DNA of 64,000 bases, from assembly GCA_015146655.1 (NCBI GenBank), contig VKHL01000056.1:1-64000 (forward strand), in the 5' to 3' direction. A program made the position numbers and the translations under genes. Within the stretch, counting starts at the first letter, position 1, and each line of letters begins with the position of its first letter. The notes under the pieces are model-generated. The model saw only the letters and a list, made by a program, of their open reading frames with translations. It ran no database searches and was not told where the DNA came from. The stretch comes from Ochromonas danica (lineage: Eukaryota; Sar; Chrysophyceae; Chromulinales; Chromulinaceae). Shown here piece after piece: positions 2,912-44,498 of the stretch.

Positions 2912-3081
2912 CGTGTGAAGAACGGTCGAAGTCCTAATGGATAATGCAAACCTGAGTGTGTTACACTCACATCTTGCATCTTGTTTGTATTGCAAGCTAG
3001 AAATACAAACTAGATGCAAGATGTGAGTGTAATACACTCAGGTTTGCATTATCCATTAGGACTTCGACCGTTCTTCACACG
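2912..3081. repeat. Near-perfect 170-bp palindrome
   Basis: The left arm starting CGTGTGAAGAACGGTCGAAG at 2912 is mirrored by the right arm ending at 3081. The arms are about 80 bp with one or two mismatches and a centre of about 10 bp near 2992-3001. The shape fits a foldback element or MITE, or a cruciform left by inverted duplication. No coding content. Confidence 0.85.
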
Positions 3082-4165: not shown

Positions 4166-5965
4166 ATTCTTGGAAAGAAGTCTTTTCTCCTACTTCATCT
4201 ATTTGATAGTGATATCTGTGGCTGTGATCTGGATATGGCATTTGTATTTGCAACTTCCCTTGCCGGGTGAGTGTCGCCTGGAGTGGTTGTGGCTGTCTGT
4301 GCTGGGCCTTGTTTTGTGTTACTCATCTTGTTCCATCTCTTATTGTCACTTGATATCTTCTATTATTTTCTTCAGCTGCATTAACTGGTGGAGGGCGTGG
4401 CAGAACATCTGAATCGAAGAAGGAGGAGAAGAAAGGTATTTAAATAAATGCTTTTAGCTGTTTTCATTAGACTGACAGTACTTTCACTCTTTTGTCCAGT
4501 TAAAATTGTTTTCAAGGAGGATGGTAACAAGTTCTTAGATCTCACTGGTGTGCCTAATTTTCTGAAGGAGCGGTCAGGCCTCAAAACATACCTCTACCTC
4601 CGCGACTGCTACGACGACTTAATCGAGGACATCTCCTCATGCGTGAGTCGAGACATACCTGGTAAGAGCAAGAGGATTGCCATTCTGGGCACTGCCGGCA
4701 TCGGAAAGAGCGCTCTGTTCCTCGTCATCCTGAAGAGGCTGTTAAAGGACCCCAACACACTGGGCCTAACGACGCGGTCATTCTACTACCAGACTTCTCC
4801 TGCACAGATCTGGCTGTATCGTCATGTTCAGGTGGACGAATTCAGCCTACGCTTTGTGGAGAGTTGCGAGCTACTTGATGAAGGCATTCCGCTGTTTGCC
4901 GATATGGATACTGCTGATGGGTCTCCTCATGGGCACCTCGGCCCGTTTATTATCTTTACCTCGTTTCGACCATCTCGTTTCAAAGAGCTGGTCAAGAACG
5001 GCTGGCGCAAGGTGATGCCCACGTGGTCGGCTGAGGAGCAAGCGTACCTCTTCAACTCCACGCAGTTCGAGAGGGAGTTTGGGAAGGAGGTGGCCCAGCG
5101 CGCCTACGACAACATGCAGTTCTTCGGTGGGGCCATTCGGAACAGTATCCAAATCGCAATCGAGAAGAAAAACCCATTGACCGTAATAGAAGCTGCCATA
5201 TACGACAAGGGAGAGCTGGTGGCTGAGCGCTTCTTCAAGGCCGGTTTTGGAGGCACCGAGGATGTAATAGCTGATGTGCTCGTGCACAGAAATCCGCCTG
5301 TGGTGAATGGCAAGCACCAGTTCGGCGAGATACCCTACGCCTATTTCTTCGCTTCCCCGTTCGTACTCCGAAGTCTCCTCCAGCTGAAGAACCATATGCT
5401 CGCGGCCCAGGCGCGCAACAAGTACAAAGCTGACACCTTCCGCGGCGGCGAAGATGGGAGCGAGTTTGAGCGCCTGTGTCTCTACGGTTTCAAGATCTCA
5501 GGTGTGGAGTTTCTCGCGAAGCCGCTCACTGAAGGTGCAAAAAAGATTAGAGTGACCTTCCCGCCAAAGGAAGTGTTGGCGCCCAACTGGCGAGAGCAGA
5601 AGAAGTACTTGAAGCAAGAAGTGTTGTACATCCCTCCCTACGATAATCTGGAGTCCGGTGACGCTTTCTGCTTGATCAAGATCGACGAGAGGTGGACGCT
5701 GGTCATATTGCAGTGCACAATCAGTAAGACGCATCCAGTGAAGCAGAACGGGGTGAAGATCATCCGCGATTGCTACAGCAAGAACTCCGAGCTCGCGGTG
5801 GAGGAGACGGTGATCATGTTCATGACCCCGGCCAATGGCAAGCTGGAAACCGAGCAGCCGCTGGTGACGAAAAATGGAACAGTAGTTCAGCATCCTTCAG
5901 TCAAAGTCGAGGCGCAGTACAAGATCGAGAACAAGCTGGTCTCCGTTGATGACATTGTAGCATGA
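4143..5965 (+). CDS. CR NTPase-nuclease, copy 2, with a different possible first exon
   Basis: Exons 4376-4435 and 4500-5965 are the duplicate of copy 1 and translate identically, with the same Walker A (GTAGIGKSAL) and QCTISKTHPVK nuclease motif. The two upstream exons of copy 1 are not present here. Instead, an open stretch at 4143-4266 starts with ATG inside repeat R, encodes a strongly hydrophobic segment (FIYLIVISVAVIWIWHLYL) and ends at a GTGAGT donor in phase 1. That is the phase required by the acceptor before 4376, so a chimeric, membrane-anchored form is possible. The link is my inference; alternatively the copy is silent or begins elsewhere. The NTPase-nuclease part looks whole. 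Confidence 0.55.
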
Positions 5966-6469
5966 TGAAGTTATGACTCAAGTTTATGAAGTGATGACTC
6001 AGAGCTCGTCAAGCACCAAACTAAGACATAATAGGCAATATGGTCAGCGATATTTACCTCGAAATGCTCGAGGACCAGCAATTCCGACCTTTTCGGCATT
6101 AAAGAGTACGCCTTTCAACAGGATAACGATCCTAAACATACAGCTAAAGTTGTTCAGAAGTGGTTTACCAACAACGGTGTTAAATTGTTACCTTGGCCTG
6201 CTTATTCTCCAGACTTGAATCCCATCGAGAACTTGTGGTTCATTCTTGACAGCATGTGCTCCCGAAGAATGGTAAAAACGAAGAGGAACTGTTTGTTTGC
6301 TTGAAAGAAACTTGGAAAACACTTCCTACAGACCTATTGGAACGTTTGGCTGACAGCATGCCAAGGAGAGTTCAAGCTGTTATTGAAGCAAATGGAGGTC
6401 CAACCAAGTACTATTTTTTTTTCTCAAAATTGCTTCTTTTCTTTCCACTATAAATTAATGATTAATTGT
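4323..6469. repeat. Direct repeat, right copy (2147 bp)
   Basis: Partner of the repeat at 304-2450. It begins in the CR intron at TCATCTTGTTCCATC and ends at GATTAATTGT, 15 bp before repeat R copy 2. Confidence 0.9.
6040..6415 (+). mobile_element. Tc1/mariner transposase remnant (copy 2)
   Basis: Duplicate of the fragment at 2021-2396, with the same QQDNDPKHTA and SPDLNPIENLW signatures and the same frame breaks. Both copies therefore descend from one already damaged fragment. Confidence 0.85.
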
Positions 6470-19057: not shown

Positions 19058-21525
19058 CTACACAGACTTAGCGTTATCTTGCAACTCACAAGCTTGGCCA
19101 ACAAAGCCAGGAAAGCAATCACACAGCCCTGTTGATCGGTCACAATAGCCGCGGTTGGCACACTCCGTGGTCACAGGGTAGACATTCTTCCCAGGGCGAA
19201 GGTTTACGAGGGTGGGGTGCTGCATGGGGGTGCGACCAACACAAAGCACTTCTGGCGCATAGTCAATTGATGGCAGAGCAGGCGAGAGTCGATATAGTCG
19301 AGCCGGTCGCGAGCTTGTCCATATGTTGGGCACGGCCATGTCCACAGTTATCAGATTGCTTGTCCCATTCAATAAAGGATCGCCTGAGCCTATCCGCACA
19401 ATAGTAAACAAAGTGATCGCATGGCTACGAGAAGCATCGCCATTGTCCTCCCAACCCAGCGACATGTCGATAGGGAAAACTCTATCGCCTTTCTCAAGAC
19501 AATGAAATAAACCCGGTGACGGTCCAACTCGCTCTAAATACTCACAAGAGAGATCGGGTGTTGGTACTTCTTCTTCGTCCACCACTCCAAGCACAGATGA
19601 AGCGTACGCAGAGAGAGTGGAGAGTGTGGCAGGCGCTATATTGATGTCTGTCAGAAGAGACGGAAATATTGATGCCAAAGGGTTGGTTGCATTCGCTAAT
19701 CCACACGTCTGCGTTGATAGGAAGGGACTGTACAATTGGTCATGACGAGTGAGAGCACAAACACGATCACTGACGAGCTCTGCGACTGCCGACAGAGACA
19801 CTCGGACGGAGAAAGTTGTATCTGAGCCAAAATCTCGACCAGCGCGAGTGAAAAGAACAAATCGCGCACTAATTGGATCGTAAGCAAGCGCAGCCACGAG
19901 GCCGACACTTGGCGAAGTTCCAGGATTACTGTGCATGTGCATGTAGGGGAAGGGAGAAGGAGGACGGCAGAAGGAGCCTGAACCTCGAACACTATCTTGC
20001 TCTCCAGGGCAGAGATCTGTTAGCGCTTCTCCATCAACCTCGTCGACCTCAGGGGTGAGCAGGAGGAGGTGCGGGTGATTGACACTGCCATAGTCCCAAA
20101 CAAAGCGCTCACCCGCAACGACTTCCTCGGCAGAATAGGTGCTGCTATCACCATCTGCATCGCCTAGACAACGCGCTAACAGCCTCTTCTCGATGGGAGT
20201 TAGACCGTCGAGGTAGTAATACTCTACTCCTTCGCTAGCATTCAAATGCCGGCTGATCCGCACTCCCACGCCTTCACAAAGCACAGGGAAGTAGTCCAAA
20301 CTCTCTCCCCAAAAGCCATCACCGTAAACCTTTGTGATTACCCTGCCACTGGCGCCTCCTTCAGAAGACGTCAGCGTGGCTCGGCGGCCATCCAAGAATC
20401 TCTCGACCTGGAACTGTCTCAAGTAGCCTGGACTGCGAGGAAAGGTTAGAGTGTATTTGATGCCATATCGATCAGGGTCATGGATAGGATCATCTCCAAG
20501 GGTCAGATTCCTGATACTGATCCAGCGCAGGCAGCGCATACTGTCAGCAGGCAGGAAGGCACTGCTTCCCTGCACCTCAAATGCTTGGACGACCTCGCGA
20601 CAAGAAGCATTGAAGGAGATGGGATGGGTCAGGTGCGACTGGCCTGATACATCGTACCAGCGAAGTGCAAAGTATCCAGAGATAACGGCGGTGGATGATC
20701 GCGTGTAAATACTGAAGGACACATTGGCATACCGCAGATTCAACTTGTGCGGATAGAGTGGATCAACTCCAATGGGACACACTCTCTGAGAGCAATCAGC
20801 TCCACTGTATCCACTGTCACACACACAGCCCATTGTGATATCTTCGTCCCACAGACGGTAAATGTTGTCGAAGTCTTGCGCAGCAATCTCAGAGATTGTC
20901 TCACAAGTGCCATGACCAGAGCACACGCCATTAGGGCCTGAAGGACACGAAGCACGCTGACAAGCAGAGCCTTCGTAGCCTTCGAAGCAAGAACAGGTGC
21001 CCGTGGAGCGATCGCACAGACCCTTGTTGCTGCACTCACGATACTCGTGTGCAGTGTTCGTGAGAACATTCCCAGCGATATCCGTTGTGGCGGGGTAGAG
21101 CTCCGTCGTGCCAAAGCGATAGATGAAGTCATTCACAACCACAATCTCGCTAGCATTGGACAGAGCACCCGAGGAAGCGTCCAAATCGCCCTTCGGAGAG
21201 TCCACGTGTGCCAAACCAAACTGACAGATTCCTGACACCCAGCAACACACACACATCATCAATACACGGTGAAGAGGAAATCAATTAAACGGCCAGAGTC
21301 TCCCGAATAACAACAACAATAATAACAAAATAATAGCAATTAATTGCTCGCGGAAACAGACTTACTTTCTGAGCAGTCGTTGGCCATCCAGTTGCGGAAG
21401 CAGGTGCACATGTCATAGGCCCCGCACTTGCCATGGGCGCTGCAAGCATTGGGACATTCACCCCCTGTTAGAGCGAGGACGATGAAACAGATGGCAAGTG
21501 ACAGACCAAGCCTCCAGTCCTTCAT
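19058..21525 (-). CDS. Secreted EGF-like protein, SIG/Ocm mastigoneme type (minus member of pair)
   Basis: Exons 21366-21525 and 19058-21231 give 777 aa. Signal peptide LGLSLAICFIVLALTGG, then EGF-like units CSAHGKCGAYDMCTCF, CSNKGLCDRSTGTCSCF and CSGHGTC followed by YRLWDEDITMGCVCDSGYSG, then CPIGVDPLYP, a long Cys-poor region with N-glycosylation sites, and a closing EGF unit [17 protein letters not shown]. This order matches stramenopile SIG and Ocm proteins, which have been placed in mastigonemes, the stiff flagellar hairs. The role is inferred by family. The 5' third is an inverted copy of the gene at 21746; past the shared block the two proteins differ widely. Confidence 0.7.
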
Positions 21526-22486
21526 CTCCTTTTCATTGCCTTGCCTTGAAGAAGCGCGTTTTCCCAAGAAACGACGAAACCGTTTTGGAAGCGGAAATAC
21601 GAAAAACTTGTTGCGCGGAGAAAAGACTCTGTCCCCCAAAGATTGTGAAACCGCTGGGCCCCAAACCGGGACGCCTCTGCTGGCAGCGGTTGCACTGCTG
21701 CGGTCCGTTCTCACAGTCAAATTTGTTCGAGCATCTCACTCGATTATGACGAAGACCCTCCCTGTCTTAACCTTATTATTACTCGGCATTGCCGGGCTGA
21801 TTAATGCCGAATGTCCCAATGCTTGCAGCGCCCATGGCAAGTGCGGGGCCTATGACATGTGCACCTGCTTCCGCAACTGGATGGCCAACGACTGCTCAGA
21901 AAGTAAGTCTGTTTCCGCGAGCAATTAATTGCTATTATTTTGTTATTATTGTTGTTGTTATTCGGGAGACTCTGGCCGTTTAATTGATTTCCTCTTCACC
22001 GTGTATTGATGATGTGTGTGTGTTGCTGGGTGTCAGGAATCTGTCAGTTTGGTTTGGCACACGTGGACTCTCCGAAGGGCGATTTGGACGCTTCCTCGGG
22101 TGCTCTGTCCAATGCTAGCGAGATTGTGGTTGTGAATGACTTCATCTATCGCTTTGGCACGACGGAGCTCTACCCCGCCACAACGGATATCGCTGGGAAT
22201 GTTCTCACGAACACTGCACACGAGTATCGTGAGTGCAGCAACAAGGGTCTGTGCGATCGCTCCACGGGCACCTGTTCTTGCTTCGAAGGCTACGAAGGCT
22301 CTGCTTGTCAGCGTGCTTCGTGTCCTTCAGGCCCTAATGGCGTGTGCTCTGGTCATGGCACTTGTGAGACAATCTCTGAGATTGCTGCGCAAGACTTCGA
22401 CAACATTTACCGTCTGTGGGACGAAGATATCACAATGGGCTGTGTGTGTGACAGTGGATACAGTGGAGCTGATTGCTCTCAGAGAG
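20782..22486. repeat. Inverted repeat, two 678-bp arms around a 349-bp spacer
   Basis: Arm 20782-21459 (minus) and arm 21809-22486 (plus) appear base-identical wherever compared, including the 134-bp intron. They satisfy x + y = 43268. Identity starts exactly after the two different signal peptides and stops after ...DCSQR. The spacer 21460-21808 holds both signal peptides and the shared divergent promoter. Flanking coding regions are diverged, so the identical block was probably homogenised recently by gene conversion. Confidence 0.92.
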
Positions 22487-24051
22487 ATTGTCCTGTGGGC
22501 ACTGACCCCCTCTACTTCGATAACAACGCGACTATTCGCTACTCGAACTTCACCTACCAGTTCTTCTCGGACAGCAGCAGTAATGTCGTGACGGGTAATT
22601 ATTCGATCATATTTACTGATGTCTATGGTGAGGATTGGAACACTGTCCCTATTGATATTGCGGCGACTTGTGCGACCATCCAAGCCGCTCTTGAAACTTT
22701 GCCCAACAACGTCATCGACGCCGGCTCTGTGCGTTGCTACAAGTGGAACGCTGCTCAGAGTGGTCCTATCGTTGACGGTAATATGTTCATCCACGCTAGA
22801 TACACTCTGGCTTTCCCCAGAAATCCTGGAAAGCTCAAGCAAATTGCTATCGATCGATTCCTTGATGGCTCCCGAGCCACTCTCTACACAAATGAGCCCG
22901 TCTCAAGTTTGGGTTGGCATGTATACCCCAACGGCTTTACGGGTGAGTTTGTGGATTTAGTGCCTAATCGTTGCTTTGGCGTCATCGCCAATCTTGCCGC
23001 CGGAGCCACCTTGGAAGGCGGTGTAACAGGCGATATTGGCACTCATTATCTTGCCGGACTGGATGCAACTGAACAGAGTCTGCTCAAAACATGTCTGGGT
23101 GGCTCTGACAATAACACTGCGAACAATGTCGAGGTGTATAACTGGGATTATGGTAGTTTTAATAATCCTCACTTGATCAAGCTGCAGGATGCCACTCAGT
23201 ACACCTATGTTTACGAAGTGAATAGCAATGGAGACATCATCTATGATCCCCAAATCCAATATCGTCCTGCTTCTAGCCTCTGTGATTCAACATCTCCTAA
23301 TGCTGCCCGTTTTGGCGATGATGCGTACGGCAACCCAATGTGCTGGAACAAGCAGGCTCCCGGATTCTATGCTGTTCTCGTCTATGTCTCTTCCTTGGCC
23401 AATCCTTTCCGCTTGTGGACACGTGCAGCTACCGACTTCGGCTCCACCACCCCATTCTATGTCTACACCACTAACGGATTCCTAAATTTGGTTTCCTCCG
23501 ATGCTGGTGTTTACACTTATCGCAATTACTACAGCAACTGGGAAAAGGTTGTATCTCATCACAGCAATGTAGTTCATAGCACAAATATCGGCACCACTCC
23601 CGGGTATTATGGTGATATGTCGTGCGAAACTCACCCTGTGGGATCGACATATGCCCTTGATTGCTTGAACAAAGGAGACTTAGTGATGACGTTATTACAG
23701 CCTGACGGGAGTAGTGCTACTTTGGCTAATAACCCTATCTATCCTAATGTGTACACTACTGAGAAGATTTACCGCGCTCGCCGCAACAACATCACTGATG
23801 TGACCTACAACGAGGAAGAGAGATTGAACATCATCTTCGACTACTCTCTGAACTCTGCCTTCTCAAACCGCGCTCCAGCCTATGTTTACAAGTTTTATCC
23901 CGACACCAGCTCTGCTGACGGAGGATATTTGCACACCGGAGCCTGCGGTACCCGTGGTATCTGCAACTCTGACACTGGATTGTGTGAGTGCTTCAGTGGC
24001 TACGGCAAAGCCGATTGCTCTTGCAACACCTGCAACCTCTTGTCTTTCTAG
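21746..24051 (+). CDS. Secreted EGF-like protein, SIG/Ocm mastigoneme type (plus member of pair)
   Basis: Exons 21746-21902 and 22037-24051 give 723 aa. Signal peptide TLPVLTLLLLGIAGLINA differs from that of its partner. The next part (from ECPNACSAHGKC to GYSGADCSQR) is identical to the minus-strand gene. After that come CPVGTDPLYF, a long region of aromatic, Asn/Thr-rich sequence with few Cys, and a final EGF unit CGTRGICNSDTGLCECF ending CSCNTCNLLSF. Likely secreted and part of a flagellar-hair or surface fibre; inferred from family resemblance and the signal peptide. The starts of the two genes are 220 bp apart, so co-expression is likely. Confidence 0.7.
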
Positions 24052-41596: not shown

Positions 41597-44498
41597 ATGG
41601 CGAGGCGGGGACTGCTGCTCGCTGTTCTTCTTCTCTCTGGTCTGGGAGGCGACTGGGCGCTTGTCGAGGAGATCTGCCCCAACTCCTGCAGCGGCCACGG
41701 AGTCTGTCGACCCACAGTCGCAGGCTCCTGTCAATGCGTGCCAGGCTTCATCGGAGTGGACTGCTCGCAAAGACTCTGTCCCGCGGGAAGGGCATGGGTG
41801 GACTTCCCCTCTGCCAACAACGTTGCTCACGACGACTGGACTGAGTGCTCTAATATGGTAGACTTCCTTCCCCTTTTCCTCTTCTCTCCCCCACGATGAC
41901 TCACGACTAATGACTCTCATTAGGGCATTTGCGATCGAAGCACAGGGCTGTGCAGCTGCTATTCGGGCTTCTCAGGCGCTGCCTGCGAGATGAGTGAGTG
42001 GCCACCGACTATTCCTCTTCCTTCGCTAGACTCTCTCAACTTTCAACTGTGCTTGACGAACAGGTCTGTGCACCGTCGGCATCACCCCGGACTCCAACGG
42101 CACGACCACTTCGCGCTACCAGATCTGCTCTGGGCGCGGCCGCTGCCTCTCCTTGCGCCAAGCCTCGCTCTTCCAGGACTTCCACACTGCTTTTGGCGGT
42201 GAAGAGTACAGCGGGTGGGACGCGGACAAGGTCTATGGCTGTGTCTGTGACGAGGGCTATGAGGGCCCTGCGTGCCAATTCCGCTCTTGTCCCCTGGGAG
42301 ACGACCCCACGACTGTCGCCTATCCAGCCACCCAGCTTATCGACTGCCAGTGCACTACTTGTCTGGGCACTGTGCAGCTCAGTTACCGCGGACAAGTTGC
42401 CGCGCCTTTGCCGTACGATGCCATGCCCGCCTTGGTGCAGAGCCGTCTACGCGTGAGTCTATCCTCAACACCTCCTCCTCCTCCGCCTCTTCATAGTTTA
42501 CTGTCTTCTTCAGACATTGAAAGGCTTGGAGAACGTCCAAGTCAAGGCCATTCTGGGAGAAGAGCTCTGCTCTTCTGATGGCTCTGTGCTGCAAGTGACT
42601 TTTCCTCGTCTCAAGCAGCCGTCTGCGCTCTCCATCGTGGCCGCGACGGGTCTGCGCACCTCCTACCTCGCTGTGAGAACCGGTGGCTTCTCCTCGCAGA
42701 TTCTCCCATCCGCTAAGTCTTACTTGGCTGCAGGCATCGAGCAGGCGGTGTGTAGCAATCACGGCATCTGCGACACATCCTCGGGCACTTGCGCTTGCTT
42801 TAACGGCTTTTCTTCGTCTGACGGACTCGGCGGTCCAGGCAATCGAGGCGACTGCGGCTATATCTCCGCTGTCTCCATCACGTGCCCCTACCGAAACGGA
42901 GAGATCTGCTCTGGTCATGGCAGCTGCTACTCGGCCTGGGGGATATGCCAATGTGATAATGGCTATGGTTTGTTCTCTGCTGCCCTCTACTAGTGCGATC
43001 TTCTTCGACTAAATCTCTGCCGTTACCTGCCTTAGATGGACCGGACTGCTCTCGCCAGGCGTGTGGATGGGCGCAGAAGTGGTTCGGCACCGATATCTCG
43101 CAAGGGCACCAAGGATCCGCTGTTTGCGCTAACGTTGGCGTCTGCGATGTCTCAAGCGGCCTATGCGGGTATCTTCTCCTCCTCCTTCTACTTCGTTTCC
43201 GCTCTAATCTTTGTTGTTTCTTGCTGCAGGAGCTGTGGCATCTTTGGAGGGGACAGCTGCGAGTATCTTGCCTGCCCTGTGGACAGCCTCTCCAGACCTT
43301 GCGGGTATGCTTGTCCTTCTCCTCCTCCTCCTCCTCTTATTTTGAACTCTTCCCTGCTTGCGTAGTGGAAATGGTACTTGTCTGACTCTTCGCCAGCTCG
43401 CCTCCTATTCCTACAGAGACGATGGAGTGCTGCGCGATATTGCCTACGATCTGTGGGATGCTGAGTGAGCGCCTTCCCCTCCTCCTGTTCTCCTCCTTCT
43501 CCTTTATACTCATGCTTGCATCGTCTGTGCTGTCATTCTTTAGCATGGTGCAAGGATGTGCTTGTGCGCGAGCAATCAGTGTGGATAACCAGTACAACAT
43601 GGCCCTCTCTTCCTCCTCCTTCCTGGCGAACGTTACCTTAGTTGCCTCAGCGAACATGCTCAATCTCTCGCGCATCGCCACTTCCTACGAAGAGATCTCG
43701 CGCTACTACCGAGGCCCTTACGCCTTCTCAGCCACAGATTTCGTTGGCTTCGATTGCTCGCAGATGCGCTGCCCCACTGGAGATGACCCGCGCACCTATG
43801 GAGGTTAGTCTTCTTCCTCCGCCACCAATGAGGTCTGTTCTCACAATGAAATGCGAATATGCTGCGTAGTGAATGACGTGCAGGTCTTGCATTGCACGGC
43901 CACGTCATCCGATATCTCGCAGGGAGAGACACTGAGCCTGCTCTTTCGAGAGAACGTCTCGCTGCCTGTGGCAGTCAACGCCTCGCTGTCAGACCTTTCC
44001 ACCGCCCTCGAAGCGACTTTCACCATATCTGCTCTACACATCTGGGCCACGGCCAGCGGACCCGACGACGTCGCCTTGACCAATGCCACCTTCTGCTCGC
44101 CCACTGCCAATATATGTATCACCCCCCTTAACCTCTTCTTGTCTTTATCCCCTTCGTGTCGTTTACCTCCATCTCTTGTTCTTGTCTCTTGCTCTGTTTC
44201 ATGTTATGCAGCGATCTTTGTGGAGTTCTTGGGCCAACATGGCGACCTGCCGCTGCTCTCCCTGGCCACTGCCTCCTCCCCATCCATCGCTCTGCGTGTT
44301 GATAAAGTTCAATCGGGTACCACTGAGGAGGTGGAGTGCAGCCGCACTGGCCTCTGCGACTACTCCACGGGTCGCTGTCGGTGTCTTCAAGGCTTCCAGT
44401 CGAGCAACGGCTATGGCGGACCCGGTGAGACAGGCGACTGCTCCTTCTCGAGCCCTTTTACTGCCTCATCCTCTTATGCTGTGGTACCTCCCAGATGA
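41597..44498 (+). CDS. Secreted EGF-like protein, SIG/Ocm mastigoneme type, ten exons
   Basis: Exons 41597-41857, 41924-41993, 42064-42452, 42514-42967, 43036-43168, 43230-43304, 43366-43464, 43544-43803, 43870-44115 and 44212-44498; all phases agree, giving 757 aa. Signal peptide [17 protein letters not shown], then EGF-like units [35 protein letters not shown] with [16 protein letters not shown], and CPLGDDP; a second series [76 protein letters not shown]; and a last [16 protein letters not shown]. The whole module is thus present twice. Probably a flagellar-hair or surface fibre protein, by family. Confidence 0.75.

Follow-up and report, generated by a model that had tools for sequence, protein, structure and literature searches.

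Gene conversion between adjacent, inverted duplicate genes is known from Caenorhabditis elegans, and the tracts can reach into introns (PMC3966223, in the parts cited here). According to the same parts of that review, conversion tracts in Caenorhabditis span 12-2,958 bp, and the spacer of the inverted hsp16-48 module measures 416 bp (PMC3966223); same-orientation pairs are in excess among the converted C. elegans neighbours, with proximity as a confounder of this excess, and the review also cites a study in humans in which proximity had no effect (PMC3966223). In the literature searched, the terms 'mastigoneme' and 'gene conversion' co-occur in one paper, with one mention each (PMC6043606). 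In the window (the whole stretch of 64,000 nucleotides that was analysed), two head-to-head genes of the mastigoneme type share an inverted block that is identical in every base. We conclude that this block was very probably copied recently between two old paralogues, that is, by interlocus gene conversion. The genes are referred to as P and M, and their parts are as follows.

21746-21902 and 22037-24051, plus strand: exons of gene P (OCM6, 723 aa); open spliced frame, 723/723 residues to PDB 9UFE chain FA
21525-21366 and 21231-19058, minus strand: exons of gene M (OCM6 paralogue, 777 aa); open spliced frame
21903-22036, plus strand: intron of P, 134 bp, inside the block; GT-AG, frame kept
21232-21365, minus strand: intron of M, 134 bp, the same as that of P by identity of the arms; GT-AG
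20782-21459, minus strand: left arm of the inverted block, within gene M; agrees with the right arm at 678/678 positions
21809-22486, plus strand: right arm of the inverted block, within gene P; agrees with the left arm at 678/678 positions
21460-21808, no strand: spacer between the arms, 349 bp, which holds the start of each signal peptide and the 5' region common to the two genes
22487-24048, plus strand: diverged C-terminal part of P; 34.0% amino acid identity to M, pS 0.796
19061-20781, minus strand: diverged C-terminal part of M, from the protein and codon comparison with P

Both introns are predicted from open frames in the genome sequence alone, with no transcript seen. The two ATGs are separated by 220 bp (21526-21745), which form the shared 5' region. 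Pfam searches with P and M identify EGF-type domains only (E up to 1), and an AlphaFold2 model of the second exon of M, built on a 4-row alignment, is unusable (mean pLDDT 33.1).

The product of P is OCM6, where we take OCM to stand for Ochromonas mastigoneme proteins. By identity over its full length with a chain of the solved structure, P is one of the OCM/tubular mastigoneme proteins; PDB 9UFE also contains chains under the names 'Tubular mastigoneme protein', OCM3 and OCM5. The best-matching gene on another contig is a long relative on C18, and its product agrees with chain AA of this structure across all 682 residues given (1615.6 bits). M carries the N-terminal module of OCM6, yet it is absent from the six distinct 9UFE sequences matched, among which OCM6 is its best match; its assignment to the mastigoneme family is by homology only. 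The product of a second long relative (C72) is likewise absent from these six sequences and is related only. No paper describing PDB 9UFE was found among the matches listed in the literature search.

After one arm is reverse-complemented, the two agree at all 678 positions, the intron included (0/134 bases differ); by the rule of three, zero differences in 678 positions place the 95% upper bound on the true divergence of the arms at ~0.44%. The sequence-only reading had described an apparently base-identical inverted block of this length containing the 134-bp intron, and its outer coordinates, 20782 and 22486, are exact. Outside the arms identity is lost quickly: compared without alignment, the next 28 bases on the outer side match at 18/28, followed by 9/54 and 11/50 (approximately chance level beyond the 28), and on the inner side 13/41 bases match (again approximately chance). 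The block is sharply bounded, by the signal-peptide end on one side and by ...DCSQR on the other. Signal peptides that differ between the genes had also been noted, and only 3/21 residues are alike. The arms occur in one place and one orientation in the single assembly; no third copy of the block was found in the genome (31,187,593 bases in 337 contigs searched, only the best candidates scored).

Other features of the window were recorded alongside. No inverted repeat of at least 50 nt (seed of 14) was found in it except a near-perfect palindrome at 2912-3081 (two 85-nt arms, no spacer, 95% complementary). Positions 300-2450 and 4319-6469 form a direct repeat with a 505-aa open frame in each copy, and the first of these frames has no Pfam match at 1e-5. 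Pieces of a third member of the EGF-type family lie on the plus strand at 41915-44444, ~18 kb from P.

The sequence-only reading called the C-terminal two thirds of P and M clearly different; this is correct in that they have diverged, but they are still homologous, and it is the combination of divergence and homology in the flanks that makes the case informative. We compared P and M with the genes on C18 and C72, using protein and codon alignments. After the block, protein identities are 167/491 for P and M (34.0%), 166/447 for P and C18 (37.1%), 140/443 for P and C72, 137/449 for M and C18, 116/442 for M and C72, and 197/507 for C18 and C72. In the block the corresponding values are 181/181 for P and M, 118/179 for P and C18, 94/180 for P and C72, and 110/179 for C18 and C72; no other part of the four proteins compared is as well conserved as the block.

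This conservation would fit a rival reading in which the EGF module is under extreme purifying selection and no copying took place. Silent sites decide against it. Between P and M the block has no differences at 118.3 synonymous and 424.7 non-synonymous sites, and none in the intron; after the block, pS is 0.796 (saturated) and pN is 0.488. In the other five pairs among the four genes (three independent ones, P and M being equal in the block), the same block is synonymously saturated (pS 0.82-0.93) at protein identities of 52-66%. Thus, the block is conserved as protein in all four genes and, save between P and M, not at silent sites. Synonymous and intron sites that are equal are something constraint cannot produce, so the block was very probably copied recently; constraint alone is rejected, and we regard it as barely conceivable. 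With a block far more alike than its homologous flanks and with its neutral sites identical too, gene conversion is well supported within this genome, in agreement with the earlier proposal.

The age of the duplication is indicated by likelihood trees of the four sequences (LG+G4; 423 columns for the C-terminal part). The raw identities after the block would place P with C18 instead of M (37.1% versus 34.0%), but this arrangement is ruled out by likelihood: P and M are sisters in both the block tree and the C-terminal tree, and for the latter both alternative topologies are rejected (p-AU 0.00017 and 0.00013). Since likelihood pairs P with M throughout, there is no topological incongruence, and the contrast is one of distance only; the maximum-likelihood distance between P and M is ~0 in the block and 1.90 substitutions per site in the C-terminal part, compared with 0.67 and 1.48 for C18 and C72. 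We also considered GC-biased conversion and rejected it: third-position GC is 0.59 in the block and falls to 0.54 in P and 0.50 in M after it, but C18 shows a similar step (0.50 versus 0.45), which leaves no signal. Separately, the gene on C72 has a third-position GC of only 0.16, compared with 0.45-0.59 in P, M and C18 (block and C-terminal part), and the stretch that carries it (L035) has an overall GC of 38.5%.

The sharp edges might also be expected from a recent insertion or exon shuffling, that is, from a copy of the block being put into a gene that previously had none. The C18 and C72 genes, however, have a homologous block in the same place (without an intron at the P/M intron position), and beyond the block the register runs straight into a C...DP.Y stretch that is common to all four. 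Given this shared position and register, homologous replacement takes fewer steps than loss followed by insertion, and we consider an insertion very unlikely.

An error of assembly or polishing, in which arms that are merely similar came out as equal or one of the arms is spurious, is a little less improbable, although we still think it unlikely. The assembly contains other near-identical repeats, of whatever origin: the direct repeat in the window (2151 bp at 99.86%) and a 501-bp direct repeat at 100% in the stretch L047. Against an artefact, both arms run in frame into their own C-terminal part and their own signal peptide, and the frames are open; arms with the block divergence found between the other paralogues (pS at least 0.82) would hardly have been merged; and the assembled P equals the OCM6 of the solved structure, a match that is no independent proof of the block because the sequence in 9UFE may itself derive from this assembly.

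We infer the molecular mechanism of the conversion, the role of the inverted layout and any recurrence at the P/M locus. P and M are old head-to-head duplicates, saturated with changes in the signal peptides and the C-terminal two thirds; the N-terminal EGF module and its intron would recently have been copied as DNA, non-reciprocally, from one gene onto the other, or an equivalent template switch would have joined inverted copies with only 349 bp between them. The copied stretch lies on the best-conserved part of the gene, where homology would suffice for copying, and every conversion would restore homology in the block while the flanks drift out of reach. The intron within the tract argues against copying via a mature mRNA. 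With identical copies, either direction of copying (P to M or M to P) would fit.

The family to which P and M belong is large, with at least 49 matches on 19 contigs (E up to 0.01), and contig C3 contains a second inverted pair, in which the neighbouring genes are arranged tail to tail and enclose another open frame, which we take to be a ubiquitin fusion. This pair shares a 334-bp inverted block that is 98.8% alike (1 mismatch, 1 gap):

C3:146218-146551: first copy of the inverted block
C3:148314-148644: second copy of the inverted block

The C3 block covers a Pfam Peptidase_S74 domain (endosialidase-type chaperone, E 2.6e-15). In a codon alignment with the block ends included, its pS is 0.031 and its pN 0.029, versus a flanking pS of 0.75 in the 606 codons before the block and 0.93 in the 53 codons after it; in a third paralogue (on C220) the domain has just 56% identity across 88 residues. 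Near their 5' ends, the C3 genes are also 82.6% alike along a 535-bp stretch. The C3 pair thus shows the same pattern as P and M, so the process seems to recur in the family. Both inverted family pairs less than 10 kb apart among the matches listed have such a block, these two being the only inverted pairs examined.

We scanned 20 family stretches and the window (228,519 bases) for near-identical blocks. No block of at least 85% identity over 60 bp was found between different stretches (comparisons solely of the repeat-rich L040 and L053 being left out), and the stretches with two matches in the same orientation (C220 and C48), which are few, have no such block internally. A tandem pair on C118 was considered as a third case of conversion and is not counted: a recent gene duplication in tandem, with a repeat tract that is hypervariable, explains its near-identical blocks better, so not every such pattern is conversion. 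Tandem duplicate EGF genes lie at L053:3172-9370; parts of them are near-identical (1217 bp at 99.1% and 776 bp at 97.3%), while their Pro-Ser-Gln repeat tract is hypervariable.

The best-known carriers of Peptidase_S74-type chaperone domains are phage tail fibres. The EGF-family genes at L049:3777-6263 and L046:2075-5737 have such a domain near the C-terminus, and in the C3 genes it comes after a long glycine-rich repetitive stretch. By analogy, the EGF-family proteins that bear it may form trimeric fibres in the hairs.

With both pairs in hand, a broader reading can be formulated, namely that concerted evolution in neighbouring inverted paralogues is limited to domains that govern assembly, the filament-specific parts being free to vary. 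The domains would be the N-terminal EGF module in P and M and the S74 chaperone domain in C3, each of which may have a putative role in assembly; we hold this reading only tentatively and think it rather doubtful. A corollary of it is that crossing over between the arms of P and M would flip the 349-bp spacer and exchange the promoters and signal peptides of OCM6 and M, and so would change which hair protein gets made. The sequence-only reading had further described the conversion as ongoing, as taking place between palindrome arms and as a process that could hold the assembly domain constant. The first description gains indirect support from the C3 pair, with its near-identical block and its 82.6% block, but the P/M locus itself shows one recent state. 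For the second, the arms are close and inverted; either property may be the one that matters, and the excess among converted C. elegans neighbours is of same-orientation pairs, with proximity as a confounder (PMC3966223). The third concerns a protein, OCM6, that is part of a solved mastigoneme and whose block may be such a domain.

The locus offers a case of sub-gene conversion that is clean and can be put into numbers, and it does so in a gene for a protein of solved structure. There is a practical consequence, too: peptides, antibodies and RNA probes from OCM6 residues 22-202 cannot separate OCM6 from M, and an OCM6 assignment that rests on these residues alone is ambiguous. If the block is an assembly interface, copying at the level of DNA would be tied to compatibility between hair subunits. 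We consider the locus worth following mainly because it connects to a solved mastigoneme and because the pattern is domain-limited and repeated.

Interlocus gene conversion is an already known kind of event that here touches a protein of a solved flagellar-hair structure. As far as the cited parts of the sources describe them, the closest systems are the hsp16-48 modules and the hsp70 pair of Caenorhabditis, which are also adjacent inverted genes with a short unique spacer (416 bp for hsp16-48 versus 349 bp here); the P/M tract of 678 bp falls within the 12-2,958 bp range, and introns are reached in both (PMC3966223). They differ in organism and gene family, and the flanks of P and M, known from one genome, are synonymously saturated. 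The palindromes of sex chromosomes are likewise inverted duplicates kept alike through intrachromosomal copying (PMC3403216); P and M, however, have no known sex-chromosome context, and they are alike in a sub-gene block only and not over whole genes and their flanks.
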